Assembly: GCA_018302545.1 (NCBI GenBank)
Contig: JAGVZM010000003.1
Span: forward strand, 1 to 40,057
Origin: Candidatus Woesearchaeota archaeon
Lineage (GTDB): Archaea; Nanobdellota; Nanobdellia; SCGC-AAA011-G17; GW2011-AR18
Length of the DNA: 40,057 nucleotides
Reading direction: 5' to 3'
Shown here: positions 3,675-32,809 of the stretch, one piece after another
Layout: each line of letters starts with the position of its first letter
How positions within the stretch are numbered: position 1 is the stretch's first letter
Translations under genes and position numbers: made by a program
Notes under the pieces: generated by a model
Databases searched by the model: none
What the model was told of the DNA's origin: nothing
The model's input: only the letters and a program-made list of their open reading frames with translations

Positions 3675-3767
3675 GGGCAGGTAATTCAGCCTGGAAACTT
3701 AAAGGTTAGGCAATAGAATGATCGGTTGGCAATCGGTATGCCGTGGGTTCAAATCCCGCCCTGTCCA
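3675..3767 (+). tRNA. tRNA-Ala(GGC) with a 19-nt D-loop intron
   Basis: Acceptor 3675-3681 pairs with 3760-3766 (7 bp) and includes G3-U70, the alanine identity pair; discriminator A3767 is followed by an encoded CCA (3768-3770). D-stem is 3684-3687/3716-3719, anticodon stem 3721-3725/3733-3737 with loop 3726-3732 and anticodon GGC at 3728-3730, and T-stem 3743-3747/3755-3759. The D-loop is 28 nt instead of about 9. Removing 3695-3713 leaves a normal loop and a 74-nt tRNA. The junctions form a bulge-helix-bulge: GCCT 3689-3692 pairs with AGGC 3708-3711, bulges GG^A and AA^T carry the cuts, and an inner hairpin 3696-3699/3704-3707 closes a UAAA loop. Confidence 0.88.
3695..3713 (+). other. Predicted intron of tRNA-Ala (D-loop, about position 19/20)
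   Basis: 19-nt insertion bounded by the predicted cuts after 3694 and after 3713. The 4-bp central helix and two 3-nt bulges match the archaeal splicing-endonuclease substrate, and excision restores the standard loop AGCCTGGTA. Inferred from folding by hand. Confidence 0.8.
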
Positions 3768-3804
3768 CCAAATATTTAAATACGAAATTATAAATTATAA
3801 GTAA

Positions 3805-4236
3805 ATGAAAAAAGAGTGTATATTTTGTAAAATAATTAATAAGAAAAATAAACAAAAAGAAGATATAATTTATGAAGATAAAAAAACAATAGCTCTATTA
3901 GATATTTCTCCTGCATCTAAAAAAGGAGGCCACACTTTAGTTATTCCAAAAAAACATTATGAACTAGTAACTGAAATGCCTGATGAAGATCTAAAAGCAA
4001 TAATGTTCACAATAAGAAAAATATCAAAAGCTTTAATGAGTTTTGCCTTGGGAATGAATATAATCCAAAATAATAAAAAAGTAGCAGGCCAATATATAAA
4101 ACATGTTCATTTTCATCTAGTTCCAAGATTTCCTAAAGATGGAATAACTATTGAAAAATGGACAACTTTTAGGTATAAAGATGAACTACATAGACAAGAA
4201 ATAGCTTCTAAGATCAAAAACCTTTTAAAAGAATAA
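3805..4236 (+). CDS. HIT-family hydrolase
   Basis: This 143-residue protein opens with CIFCKII, the start typical of HIT (histidine triad) proteins with a zinc-binding Cys pair. It has the GGHTLVIPKKHY strand and ends its core with HVHFHLVPR, the HxHxH active-site triad that forms the nucleotidyl-His intermediate. Members hydrolyse nucleoside phosphoramidates or dinucleoside polyphosphates (Hint/Fhit-like). Length and motif order are normal for the family. It lies alone between two tRNA genes; nothing in the context narrows the substrate. Confidence 0.9.
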   Translation: MKKECIFCKIINKKNKQKEDIIYEDKKTIALLDISPASKKGGHTLVIPKKHYELVTEMPDEDLKAIMFTIRKISKALMSFALGMNIIQNNKKVAGQYIKHVHFHLVPRFPKDGITIEKWTTFRYKDELHRQEIASKIKNLLKE

Positions 4237-4252
4237 TTTTAACAAATTTTAT

Positions 4253-4325
4253 GCCTCTGTCGTCTAGCGGTCAGGACACGAGTTTCATAAGCTCGATATC
4301 GCAGGTTCAATTCCTGCCAGAGGCA
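4253..4325 (+). tRNA. tRNA with CAT anticodon (elongator Met, or Ile2), no intron
   Basis: Acceptor 4253-4259 pairs with 4318-4324 (7 bp, G1-C72), with discriminator A4325. The anticodon stem CGAGT/GCTCG encloses loop TTCATAA, anticodon CAT. The T-arm is GCAGG/CCTGC around TTCAATT. The 73-nt gene has normal arms and no insertion. G1-C72 argues against the initiator tRNA (archaeal initiators usually have A1-U72). Elongator Met and Ile2 (a C34-modified isoleucine tRNA) cannot be told apart reliably by eye. CCA is not encoded; the dcd gene on the other strand ends at the next base. Confidence 0.9.
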
Positions 4326-4880
4326 CTATTTTTTAATTTCCCAATTACTAACAATTGGTTTTCCATTATCATTTTTATCATATCTTTTCCAAGAAATGTA
4401 ATCAAAAGAAGCAGGAGTTTTTAACTCAAAGACAACAGCTCTTGCAACCCTCATCTTATGATATATCTTAACATCATTTGGCCCATTATTTTTAATCTCC
4501 AAAGCGCAGATCTTAGGCTCTTGTCCAGTATCTAAGATCATGGCAGATTGAACAACACTTATCCCTAATCTGGCTAAAGTACTTCTCCCCTCAAGCATCA
4601 TACTTAATTTATTAGAAATTCCAATCTTTTCATATATTTGGCCAATAATAAACTCTCCAGATTTTAATAAATAAGATTCACTATCTTTAATTTTAATTTC
4701 CTCATAATCAGGCAATTCATTCTTAGAAGTATCAACAACTCTTCCATTTGCTTTAGGTCTAAATAAAGTATCTCCTAAATGAAAAGTCAAACCAGCAGGC
4801 CTAATATTTGTTTCATCAAAAGGATCAATAATTAAATCTTTATTTTTAATTGCTTCTAAAATATCAAGATTAGACAACAT
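4326..4880 (-). CDS. dcd: dCTP deaminase / dUTPase-family protein
   Basis: This 184-residue protein matches the dCTP deaminase family, which forms dUTP for thymidylate synthesis. The conserved core EGRSTLARLG lies at 98-107, with the Ser and Arg that bind the triphosphate. CALEIKNNG (about 125-133) carries the glutamate corresponding to the catalytic Glu of Dcd (E128). An N-terminal IRPAGLTFHLGD segment matches the nucleotide-binding strand (usually QPASxDLRLG). The usual AHRIDPGW segment is replaced by AMILDTGQEP, so substrate preference, and whether it is deaminase only or bifunctional deaminase/dUTPase, is open. Its 3' end abuts tRNA-Met(CAT). Confidence 0.85.
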   Translation of the reverse strand: MLSNLDILEAIKNKDLIIDPFDETNIRPAGLTFHLGDTLFRPKANGRVVDTSKNELPDYEEIKIKDSESYLLKSGEFIIGQIYEKIGISNKLSMMLEGRSTLARLGISVVQSAMILDTGQEPKICALEIKNNGPNDVKIYHKMRVARAVVFELKTPASFDYISWKRYDKNDNGKPIVSNWEIKK

Positions 4881-9414: not shown

Positions 9415-10074
9415 ATGAAGTATTTGATTAATTTAATATTACTATTTCTATTAATTCCTACTGTAAATGCTTGGAAATGGACAACACATGAGAATATTAT
9501 TGAATATGTCTATTACAATCTCCCATTAGAAAAACAACAAGAATTAAATCTAACAAAATTAAAAGAAGGTTCAATAATACCCGATAGAGATTTTAGGGAT
9601 ACAAGAAAACATAGTTTACCAAAATCTTTAGAAGAAGCAGAAAAATGGTTAAATAATGATTCAGACTTAAGTTTAAACATAGGCATTGCGTCTCATTACA
9701 TTTCAGATTCTTTTGTGGCCCCTCATAATATCGCAGGAGAAGACTATGATGATCATGCTAAATATGAAGGACAAGTAAAATATTATTATCCAAATTCAGA
9801 TTGTAAAGACTATGGTTATAGATTAGAAGATTTAAAAATAGCATCTAAAAACTCTAAAAATTGGAATCTATGGTTAAAAACAAAAAATAAATCAGTTCCA
9901 GAAAAAGAAGTAGAAGAATCAACAAAATTTTTATTTTCTATAATTTTAAACAAACTAAATACAACATGTATAGAAAAAACAAAAATAGAAGAAATACCTT
10001 ATTTCAATAGAAAAAAATTAATAATCTCCTCTTTGATATTATTGATAGGGTTATACTTAATTAAAAAATTCTAA
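9415..10074 (+). CDS. Secreted zinc-dependent phospholipase C / S1-P1 nuclease-fold protein
   Basis: This 219-residue protein has a signal peptide (cleavage near VNA, residue 19) followed at once by WKWTTH, the N-terminal Trp that ligands zinc in this superfamily. GIASHYISDSFVAPHN carries the His/Asp metal ligands (HxxxDxxxPxH pattern), and DDHAKYE adds another. A C-terminal hydrophobic helix (about 200-217) would anchor it outside the cell. Catalytic metal sites look present; whether the substrate is a phospholipid or nucleic acid cannot be told. It overlaps the convergent gene by 4 nt. Confidence 0.75.
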   Translation: MKYLINLILLFLLIPTVNAWKWTTHENIIEYVYYNLPLEKQQELNLTKLKEGSIIPDRDFRDTRKHSLPKSLEEAEKWLNNDSDLSLNIGIASHYISDSFVAPHNIAGEDYDDHAKYEGQVKYYYPNSDCKDYGYRLEDLKIASKNSKNWNLWLKTKNKSVPEKEVEESTKFLFSIILNKLNTTCIEKTKIEEIPYFNRKKLIISSLILLIGLYLIKKF

Positions 10075-11177
10075 ATTTCTTTGATGACTAATTGTCCTTT
10101 CATCCTTTGTTCAACTAAAGAAACTGCTTTTTTATTAACTTTTCCATTAACTAATAATATAACTCCCAAATTTTTTAATTTTCCCTCTCCAAATGCAGCA
10201 TTAACATCTGATTCATTTATAGAAGCTTTCCCCTTAGCTTTAACAAAATGCCTCAATTTACCAAAAGCAGTATTCAAATCAACTATAAAATTAAATTCCT
10301 TCTCTTTTCTTATCATCTCCTCATGTAATACATCTGCTTTATTATCTTTTAAGAATTTCAAAATTTGATTATAGAACTTTCCATCTGGTTTTTTTAGTTT
10401 ATCAAAAGACATAACCTCTAATTTCTCTTGTACTGCCTGATAATTTTTCCTAACATCCAATACTTCCTTAATTTCTTCTTCACTAGGACTATTAATCCCT
10501 TCTTGAATAGTCTCTTCTTCAATTAATTTAAGTTCTTCCACAATTTCTTCTTTTTCAACAGTTTCTATATCTTCAGGATCAGGTACTACTCCCTCTTGAA
10601 TAACAAGTTTTTCAGGTTTTGTTATCTGAACTTCCTCTATAATCTCTTTTTGACTAGGAGGCTCATCAACAACTTTTTGTTCAAATTGTTCTTGAGTTAA
10701 AATATTAGAGACGACTTCTTTATTATTAAGATTATCAAGAATCTCTTGAATTATTAATTTGGCTTGTTGGTCACTAACTAAATTATGTTTCCAAAAAACA
10801 TCCACATTTCCATTATCATTAACCTCTATTCTTGTAGCAAAATCATACAAGCTCTTAATAGCAACCCTCTGCCAAGGCTCCAAATTTTTTTCTCTAACAA
10901 CTAAACTTTCTTTTAATAATTCATAAGCTTGTTTTTCTCTACCTCCCAAAGATTCCCCTAATCTTTGGTCCATTAGATGAGCCTGCTCAGGAAGATAGTA
11001 TAAAGGACTTCCACCGATAGAAGCTTTGGTAATTTTTAAGATTTTTCTTGCTACCATTTCACTTAAAATAGCAGAAGCAAAAATTGTATCTAAGTTAAGA
11101 TGCTTAGCAACTTGAATAGGCAAGACAGACCCATTTTCATTCATAAACTGAATTACTACCTCTCTTTGATCAACCAT
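10071..11177 (-). CDS. Hypothetical protein with N-terminal winged helix, beside endA
   Basis: This 368-residue protein has three parts. Residues 1-70 look like a winged helix (VVIQFMNENGSVLPIQVAKHL, AILSEMVARKILKITK). The middle (about 155-230) is a Glu/Val-rich low-complexity linker. The C-terminal 120 residues (from FDKLKKPDGKFYNQILKFL) form a mixed helical domain with no motif I can name. It follows endA on the same strand after 57 nt, so the two are probably one transcription unit. A role in tRNA splicing or RNA binding is a guess from position only. Confidence 0.7.
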   Translation of the reverse strand: MVDQREVVIQFMNENGSVLPIQVAKHLNLDTIFASAILSEMVARKILKITKASIGGSPLYYLPEQAHLMDQRLGESLGGREKQAYELLKESLVVREKNLEPWQRVAIKSLYDFATRIEVNDNGNVDVFWKHNLVSDQQAKLIIQEILDNLNNKEVVSNILTQEQFEQKVVDEPPSQKEIIEEVQITKPEKLVIQEGVVPDPEDIETVEKEEIVEELKLIEEETIQEGINSPSEEEIKEVLDVRKNYQAVQEKLEVMSFDKLKKPDGKFYNQILKFLKDNKADVLHEEMIRKEKEFNFIVDLNTAFGKLRHFVKAKGKASINESDVNAAFGEGKLKNLGVILLVNGKVNKKAVSLVEQRMKGQLVIKEI

Positions 11178-11234: not shown

Positions 11235-11831
11235 TTAGGGTCTTAACCATTTTATTTCCCAATAAGTCACATCAGATTCTGCATCCACACAACCAACTAA
11301 CAATCTCTTTCTCGTAGAATGAGCAACCCTATTTTTAGCACTAAATTCATACCAAGTCAATACTTCACCTTCGCTTACAGGAAATACAACCCACTTAGCA
11401 TGGTCTTCTCCAGGTTTAATTCCCCTATCATAAACTCTAAAATCAGCCCCAAATTTCAAAGCAGTCTTAACTATATATCCCCTTCTTCTTAAATCTTTAA
11501 AGACAGCATATCTTGTCCAAAAATTAGGTTCAATTTTTTTAGCTTTTTTAACAAAATTATCAAAGTCTATAATCTTATTTTTATTATCAAATATCTCAAA
11601 TTTGCTTCTCTCAACCAGATACAAAGTTTCAATCAAAGAGTATTGAAATTTCTTGCTTTCTGTAGGTTCACCATACCTTCCTTTATCATATAATTCTCTA
11701 GTTAAATCATTACTATCTGCAATTACAACTTCACCAATTAAAAAAGATTTAACCATTTCTTTAGTTTCAGGAAGTTCTTCACTAGTATCTTTTAGTTTTA
11801 CTAGTTTATCTTTAACCTTAACTTTTGTCAT
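11235..11831 (-). CDS. endA: tRNA-splicing endonuclease EndA
   Basis: This 198-residue enzyme cuts archaeal pre-tRNAs at bulge-helix-bulge motifs. The catalytic triad is complete: Tyr134 in FRVYDRG, His144 in GEDHAKWVVFP, Lys175 in STRKRLLVGCVD. The Y-to-H and H-to-K spacings (10 and 31) equal those of the Methanocaldococcus jannaschii enzyme (Y115/H125/K156). The C-terminal YWEIKWLRP strand is the dimer edge. Size and single catalytic domain fit the homotetrameric type. I see no insertion resembling the crenarchaeal-specific loop, which matters because this window carries non-canonical tRNA introns. The N-terminal 25 residues are Lys/Glu-rich. Confidence 0.93.
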   Translation of the reverse strand: MTKVKVKDKLVKLKDTSEELPETKEMVKSFLIGEVVIADSNDLTRELYDKGRYGEPTESKKFQYSLIETLYLVERSKFEIFDNKNKIIDFDNFVKKAKKIEPNFWTRYAVFKDLRRRGYIVKTALKFGADFRVYDRGIKPGEDHAKWVVFPVSEGEVLTWYEFSAKNRVAHSTRKRLLVGCVDAESDVTYWEIKWLRP

Positions 11832-30294: not shown

Positions 30295-30387
30295 AATTTT
30301 AAATAAGACATTTAGAAATAATTAACTTTTTAAATTGTTATTTTTACTTTTTATCAATGGACCGGTAGCGCAGCCTGGATAGCGCAC

Positions 30388-30417
30388 ACCAACATAGGAA
30401 ATCCTACTTGGGCACAG
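30388..30417 (+). other. Predicted intron 1 of tRNA-Arg (27/28)
   Basis: 30 nt. Inner stem CCAA 30389-30392 pairs UUGG 30408-30411, then UAGG/CCUA around an AAAU loop. Bulges AC^A and AG^U set the cuts. The central helix GCGC/GCAC has one C-A mismatch, so the motif is relaxed. Confidence 0.7.
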
Positions 30418-30427
30418 TTCCCTCCTA

Positions 30428-30444
30428 ACCAAATTGGAGGAGCC
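30428..30444 (+). other. Predicted intron 2 of tRNA-Arg (37/38)
   Basis: 17 nt. Central helix CUCC 30422-30425 pairs GGAG 30439-30442; bulges UA^A and CC^A give the cuts after 30427 and after 30444. The inner stem is only 3 bp (CCA/UGG). Confidence 0.75.
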
Positions 30445-30502
30445 AGGAAGGGGTCGTGAGTTCGAATCTCATCCGGTCCGTATTATCTTATAGATAAAAA
30501 AA

Positions 30503-31678: not shown

Positions 31679-32809
31679 TTAATTATAACTAAATTTGCTA
31701 TTTTTTTTATCGTTGAATTTATAATTCTCATAAAATTCTTTCTTAAATTCTAAAAATCTATTTTCAAGAATTGCTTTTCTAGATTGCTTCATTAGGGTTT
31801 GAATAAAAAACAAATTATGAATATTACCATACCTATCACTTATTGATTCATGTGTTTTATACAAATGATGAATAAAAGATCTAGAGAAATTTTTACAGAC
31901 ATAACATTTACAACTTTCGTCTAGAGGATTTTCATCCTTATTAAATTTGACTTTTGTAATATCTATCTTTCCTTCACTAGTAAATATGCCTCCATGTCTT
32001 GAATTCATTGTTGGATACCTAGAATCAAAACAATCTATTCCTAATTGAATGCATTCTAATAGATCTTCAGGGCTTCCAACACCCATTAGATACCTAGGTT
32101 TATTTTTATCAATGAAAGGAACACTAAATTTAATAGCATTAAACATTAAGTCTCTTCCTTCGCCAATACCCAATCCTCCTAAAGCTACACCATCAAAATT
32201 CAAATCATTGATAAATTTAGCACTTTTCTCTCTTAATTCTTTAAATGTTCCACCCTGGCAAATTCCAAATAATAATTGTCCATTATCTCTATTATAATTT
32301 TTTAAACAACGTTCTGCCCATAAATGTGTTTTCCTAGTGCATTCCATAATATAACTTTCATCTTTACCATAATGGGGAACAAAATCTAAAGCCATTGCAA
32401 CATCACTTCTAATAATCTCTCCAATTTTCATAATATCTTCTGGAGCATAAAATTGTTTTTTACGTGTAAAAGGATTTATAAAATAAACTCCCTTCTCATT
32501 AGATTTATGTAGAAATGTTTTACTTAATATTTGAAATCCTCCAGAATCTGTAAATATTGTTTTATCAAACCTCATAAAATTATGTATTCCTCTAAATTTT
32601 TCAATAACTTCTAAGCCAGGTTTTAGACTTAAAACAAATGCATTAGCTATAATTGCCTCAGTTCCTAAATCTTTAACTTCTTCAGGATTTAGTTGCTTCA
32701 CACTACCCTTTGTTGCGATTGGCATAAAAAAAGGAGTCTTAACTTTTCCATGATTTGTTTCTAATATACCTGCTCTTGCTCCGGAATTTTGGTTTTCTAA
32801 ATTGAACAT
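31679..32809 (-). CDS. tgt: Bacterial-type tRNA-guanine transglycosylase
   Basis: This 376-residue protein has the size and residue numbering of bacterial queuine/preQ1 Tgt, not of archaeal TGT, which is longer and acts on G15. Visible: TDSGGFQ with D88, ALDFVPHY with D142, GICQGG (182-187), GGLGIGEG (211-218), catalytic D262 in FDSRYPTMNSRHG, and zinc ligands C300/C302/C305 with H331. The expected targets are G34 in GUN anticodons. The FVPHYG segment differs from bacterial ECTPYP, so base preference is uncertain. Confidence 0.88.
   Translation of the reverse strand: MFNLENQNSGARAGILETNHGKVKTPFFMPIATKGSVKQLNPEEVKDLGTEAIIANAFVLSLKPGLEVIEKFRGIHNFMRFDKTIFTDSGGFQILSKTFLHKSNEKGVYFINPFTRKKQFYAPEDIMKIGEIIRSDVAMALDFVPHYGKDESYIMECTRKTHLWAERCLKNYNRDNGQLLFGICQGGTFKELREKSAKFINDLNFDGVALGGLGIGEGRDLMFNAIKFSVPFIDKNKPRYLMGVGSPEDLLECIQLGIDCFDSRYPTMNSRHGGIFTSEGKIDITKVKFNKDENPLDESCKCYVCKNFSRSFIHHLYKTHESISDRYGNIHNLFFIQTLMKQSRKAILENRFLEFKKEFYENYKFNDKKNSKFSYN

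Follow-up and report, generated by a model that had tools for sequence, protein, structure and literature searches.

Marck and Grosjean in 2003 and Sugahara in 2008 reportedly described archaeal tRNA genes with introns that lie at non-canonical positions and carry a bulge-helix-bulge (BHB) motif. Reviews of such introns include D-loop and T-loop sites (PMC4090602, PMC6379350, PMC12397907), and the positions they list are 20/21, 22/23, 25/26, 29/30, 30/31, 53/54 and 59/60, among others (PMC4090602, PMC6379350). Some archaea have them in most of their tRNA genes: Pyrobaculum calidifontis, of the Thermoproteales, has 71 introns in 46 tRNA genes (PMC8450103), and in soil Asgard archaea 92-95% of the tRNA genes contain introns (PMC11291895). 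The alpha4 form of the tRNA splicing endonuclease, EndA, is described as narrow and tied to few introns at canonical sites (PMC4090602, PMC4033280, PMC6379350). For BHB tRNA introns in Woesearchaeota we found no paper in a literature search that covers subscription journals sparsely; the nearest concerns archaeal group I introns (PMC6125680).

Here we analyze a tRNA-Ala(GGC) gene in a DNA stretch of 40,057 nucleotides, referred to as the window. The genome is 1.16 Mb in size with 28.8% GC and is 95.6% complete; we regard it as that of a Woesearchaeota-like DPANN archaeon because the best matches of its EndA are proteins of Candidatus Woesearchaeota. The D-loop intron of this gene belongs to a known kind of archaeal intron. 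Like the non-canonical BHB introns described before, it is short, has a BHB at the exon borders and is expected to be removed by EndA and a ligase. It differs in its position, 19/20, which is absent from the printed list of the review (a list that ends in ‘etc.’), and in its host, which is Woesearchaeota-like rather than a member of the Thermoproteales.

An alanine tRNA gene with an insert in the D-loop

Read directly, the sequence from 3675 to 3770 is a tRNA-Ala(GGC) gene in which all four stems are present (Table 1). The acceptor stem is GGGCAGG/CCTGTCC and includes the G3-U70 pair (3677/3764). U8-A9 is present, the D-stem is ATTC/GAAT, the anticodon loop is TTGGCAA, the T-arm is GTGGG-TTCAAAT-CCCGC with TTCAAAT as its loop, and A73 and an encoded CCA close the gene. 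The alanine identity given in the preliminary description is confirmed in the sequence by G3677-T3764 together with the anticodon GGC. The raw D-loop is 28 nt long (3688-3715). Removal of the insert leaves AGCCTGGTA and restores a standard tRNA with a 9-nt D-loop, AGCCUGGUA, in agreement with intronless orthologues.

Table 1. Features of the window considered in this analysis.
Feature	Position	Strand	Contents	Basis
5' exon of tRNA-Ala(GGC)	3675..3694	+	acceptor 5' strand, U8-A9, D-stem 5' strand (3684-3687), A14-G19	sequence; splice-aware parse
Bulge-helix-bulge motif	3689..3714	+		sequence; covariation across 31 distinct D-loop introns
D-loop intron	3695..3713	+	19 nt, position 19/20, aaacttaaaggttaggcaa	strict BHB borders; site shared by intron-bearing and intronless relatives
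3' exon of tRNA-Ala(GGC)	3714..3770	+	U20-A21, D-stem 3' strand (3716-3719), anticodon GGC (3728-3730), T-arm, acceptor 3' strand (U70 at 3764), A73, CCA (3768-3770)	sequence; ARAGORN on the spliced form
HIT-family protein gene	3805..4236	+	syntenic marker beside tRNA-Ala(GGC) in relatives	tblastn at orthologous loci
tRNA with anticodon CAT	about 4253..4326	+	intronless, without CCA	third in the conserved order Ala(GGC)-HIT-CAT
EndA, tRNA splicing endonuclease	11235..11831	-	198 aa, alpha-type subunit	TIGR00324 over cut-off; PF01974, PF02778
tRNA-Arg(CCT)	30359..30479	+	two predicted BHB introns (27/28, 37/38), without CCA	splice-aware parse

A splice-aware parser ranks the borders 3694/3695 and 3713/3714 first. 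Because of its D-loop intron, this essential tRNA gene is missed by standard finders: ARAGORN reports no gene in the raw sequence and recognizes tRNA-Ala(ggc) once the insert is removed, and Rfam barely recovers the unspliced gene, at 30.8 bits, weak but above threshold, in a misplaced alignment that begins within the intron. Such a low score could also be that of a decayed pseudogene, with GCC and GCU codons read by another tRNA. We give this explanation hardly any credence: the gene keeps intact stems, G3-U70, T-loop and CCA, no other full-length copy of Ala(GGC) was found in the genome, and the intron-bearing form occurs in six genomes. The encoded CCA had itself been singled out, as missing from three other tRNAs. 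The remaining tRNA genes that we could locate in the window do lack it, but they number two, not three, and CCA is encoded in 5 of the 29 tRNA genes genome-wide and is therefore not peculiar to tRNA-Ala(GGC).

The motif and its exact placement are visible in the sequence itself. The central helix pairs GCCT (3689-3692) with AGGC (3708-3711), and the bulges GG^A (3693-3695) and AA^T (3712-3714) complete a strict 3-4-3 arrangement, in which a 4-bp helix lies between two 3-nt bulges where exons and intron meet. Inside the intron, AACT (3696-3699) and GGTT (3704-3707) form an inner helix closed by the loop TAAA. The outer helix is the D-stem; A14 stands unpaired opposite A21, hence the D-stem does not abut the BHB, a gap common to D-loop introns at 19/20. 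The description of this element as a textbook BHB thus holds for its geometry and exact borders, but not for the junction with the D-stem, from which the A14.A21 mismatch parts it. A BHB of equal or better quality, placed so that excision restores the D-loop, was reached by 0.0085% of 200,000 random and 0.007% of 200,000 permuted inserts of 19 nt. Folding is uninformative, with the minimum-energy fold of the isolated arm favouring a 5-bp GCCUG/UUAGGC register over that of the BHB.

The intron in relatives and across the class

Comparison within the same family and order, mostly of fragmented assemblies, shows the intron at position 19/20 of the Ala(GGC) gene in six genomes and its absence in five. 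Besides the gene in the window, the carriers are G002, G007 and G009 from the same family and G020 and G047 from another family of the order. The intronless genes have the D-loops AGCTCGGTA (G001), AGTCCGGTA (G017), AGCTCGGTTA (G036), AATCTGGTA (G045) and AGTCCGGTTTA (G054), three with exactly the restored layout and two with one or two additional T. Using tblastn for the HIT-family gene, we found the order Ala(GGC)-HIT-Met(CAT) in G017, G036 and G054 and Ala-HIT in G045 and G002. Since the order of Ala(GGC), the HIT-family gene and the CAT tRNA is common to several relatives, these genes are positional orthologues. The patchy presence of the intron is a matter of gain or loss within the order.

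The motif varies among the carriers. G020 and G047 have GTCC/GGAC in place of GCCT/AGGC as the central helix, a compensatory change. A G.A pair stands at the outer end of this helix in G002 and G009, which leaves three of four pairs and a relaxed BHB. For G002, G009 and G001, the last without the 19/20 intron (loci L213, L289 and L209), an additional intron is predicted in the T-arm of the Ala(GGC) gene, near 53/54.

We then considered D-loop inserts in the class as a whole. An initial pattern was replaced, as it partly presupposed the helix and gave many matches outside a tRNA-like context. The pattern used instead prescribed nothing beyond the D-stem and the D-loop's GG and TA, allowed any 11-41 nt in between, and yielded 44 matches in 41 of the 378 genomes. 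We kept 39 as tRNA-like inserts and dropped five: four intronless D-arms followed by a chance tail repeat and one match that is no tRNA. Of the 39 inserts, 31 form all four pairs of the central helix, compared with a mean of 3.5 and a maximum of 8 for shuffled introns. The inserts range from 12 to 40 nt in length, with both exon ends fixed. The 19/20 intron is also present in tRNAs whose anticodons mark them as other isotypes, such as Ala(TGC), Thr and Lys; in one genome (G076, locus L228), a tRNA-Ala(TGC) with a D-loop intron sits in the 16S-23S rRNA spacer.

For seven BHB pairs in 31 distinct introns, 94.9% of the cells are paired. Double-changed cells number 48, versus 15 after shuffling, and the covariation score is 0.661, versus 0.273. 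Sliding the partner columns by 1-3 positions lowers pairing to below 50%. The set was selected for complete (4/4) central pairing, so fully unbiased covariation is that of the inner helix only; this helix, which played no part in the selection of sequences, covaries most. These compensatory changes argue that the BHB helices are under selection.

An insert of this kind might also be an expanded D-loop that is kept in the mature tRNA, as would fit the four intact stems of the raw gene and its above-threshold Rfam score before splicing. We consider this highly improbable, given that the insert is absent from orthologues at this locus, that its length varies across the class between constant exon ends, that the BHB pairs covary, and that ARAGORN accepts the spliced form only. 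The segment is thus supported as a D-loop intron, and we infer its splicing. The preliminary account of a 28-nt D-loop holding a 19-nt insert with exact borders agrees with the splice-aware parse, with ARAGORN on the spliced form and with the orthologues, of which the intronless ones beside the same neighbours have an uninterrupted D-loop of the restored type; the unbiased insert search and the compensatory changes in the BHB helices also back the intron reading.

The splicing endonuclease and the RNA ligase

Both enzyme genes are present in the genome. Because EndA and RtcB are both encoded, cleavage at the strict BHB and ligation of the exons are expected, and we are highly confident that the locus specifies a functional tRNA-Ala(GGC) in which a 19-nt BHB intron separates G19 from U20, with EndA cutting it out and RtcB joining the exons. 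The precursor would fold into a strict BHB in the D-arm, and EndA would cut each bulge between its second and third nucleotides, at GG^A and AA^U. RtcB would then ligate G19 to U20 to give the normal 9-nt D-loop, and AlaRS would charge the mature tRNA via G3-U70. We infer the cleavage, the ligation, the order of processing and the function of the mature tRNA from the observations above.

EndA, the enzyme expected to cut the tRNA-Ala intron, is encoded 7.5 kb from the tRNA gene and is up to 75% identical to Candidatus Woesearchaeota proteins. It is the sole match to PF01974 in the genome, where a clade-specific profile run at full sensitivity also found no second EndA. Among 41 genomes from the family and order, nearly all show one strong match and no more. 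As in the alpha4 type, there is one subunit gene with both domains in a single chain. The Crenarchaea-specific loop is associated with broad specificity, and its residues in Aeropyrum are without counterpart in the EndA alignment. Neither of the features of the (alpha-beta)2 type was found, that is, a loop with a conserved Lys or a beta subunit, in searches that would detect an N. equitans-like beta subunit and would perhaps miss a truncated Pyrobaculum-like or very divergent one. The structure model is closest to M. jannaschii EndA (PDB 1a79), an alpha4 enzyme that likewise has a single subunit of 170-200 aa with N- and C-terminal domains. EndA is apparently alpha-only and may form a homotetramer.

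In 72 of 80 loci, the next gene downstream of EndA encodes a conserved protein, whose gene in the window is at 10071-11177 on the minus strand. The protein has a winged-helix N-terminus and a restriction-nuclease-like C-terminus. We rejected it as a hidden beta subunit of EndA: profile-profile comparison gave no EndA match, some relatives match Mrr_cat, and the AlphaFold model resembles restriction nucleases and MarR-like winged helices.

The rtcB gene lies outside the window. An insert of 32 nt separates the codons for MPDGH from those for WGYG and breaks the frame (locus L297, G000:C6:6485-6516 on the minus strand). In relatives, rtcB has frameshifting inserts of 28-32 nt at this site or between FD and IN. 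Six such inserts occur in five relatives, G024, G018, G011, G039 (with two) and G028 (loci L310, L322, L325, L323 and L321), and cutting them out at a four-pair BHB brings back the conserved motif of the protein; in the genome studied here the motif is regained at a BHB with three of four pairs. The rtcB genes of the clade therefore appear to carry short BHB introns, which are candidate mRNA introns. If they are real, expression of the tRNA ligase would depend on its own activity. In other relatives, among them L320, L319, L326 and L324, rtcB is one open frame of about 900-1000 residues, and the large inserts at the same two sites look like inteins.

A tRNA set rich in predicted introns and one detected EndA subunit

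A splice-aware scan of all contigs, which required at least three of four central pairs, is not exhaustive and leaves some class II anticodon calls uncertain, found 29 tRNA genes, at least 24 of them with predicted introns, and 41 introns in total. Up to three introns are predicted per gene (examples are C14:57291-57398, C14:64654-64777, C9:89472-89627 and C20:168920-169101). The predicted sites include 15/16 (Gln, Asn, Tyr), 19/20 (Ala), 27/28 to 30/31, 37/38 and 59/60, and those in the D-loop (15/16, 19/20) and T-loop (59/60) recur. The window also encodes, at 31679-32809 on the minus strand, a tRNA-guanine transglycosylase that scores as a bacterial-type Tgt (TIGR00430, queuosine) rather than an archaeal TgtA.

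Some of these introns resemble each other. Those of Glu(CTC), the gene at C9:85520 and Lys(TTT) are alike well above shuffles, as are the T-loop introns of the Cys and C24 genes; the genes with such introns are C6:12796, C9:83426 and C9:85520, and C24:5019 and C20:168920. Near-identical stretches (AAACTTTT..AAAAAGTTTAATCAAAA) are found in introns of different tRNAs, which suggests duplication or transposition of introns. Together with the group I introns known in archaea (PMC6125680), this apparent duplication would suit an Ala insert that is a self-splicing or mobile element in place of a BHB intron. The chance of that is close to negligible: 19 nt is much below ribozyme size, the BHB is the only conserved feature, and the Ala intron shows no similarity above shuffles to the other introns of the genome.

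The tRNA set as a whole resembles those of Thermoproteales and Asgard archaea in that most genes are interrupted, many sites are non-canonical and several introns may occur in one gene. It differs in that one EndA subunit was detected, with the Crenarchaea-specific loop absent. Compared with M. jannaschii and its alpha4 EndA, many non-canonical introns are predicted here, against the narrow alpha4 rule of the reviews. What is unusual is the combination of an intron-rich tRNA set with an apparently alpha-only EndA. We tentatively suggest, at slightly less than even confidence, that the single-subunit, loopless EndA of the clade removes dozens of non-canonical introns, from D-loop positions 19/20 and 15/16, the anticodon stem at 27-31 and T-loop position 59/60, and that RtcB needs the same pathway because its own mRNA carries BHB introns. 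If true, this would break the rule that an alpha4-type enzyme goes with few, canonical introns, and would amount to a self-dependent splicing circuit. The covariation-supported model of the 19/20 intron (GYYY-GG^A ... RGRC-AA^U) could join tRNA finders for DPANN genomes, and the wider pattern bears on whether the subunit type of EndA sets the number and kind of tRNA introns in a lineage.
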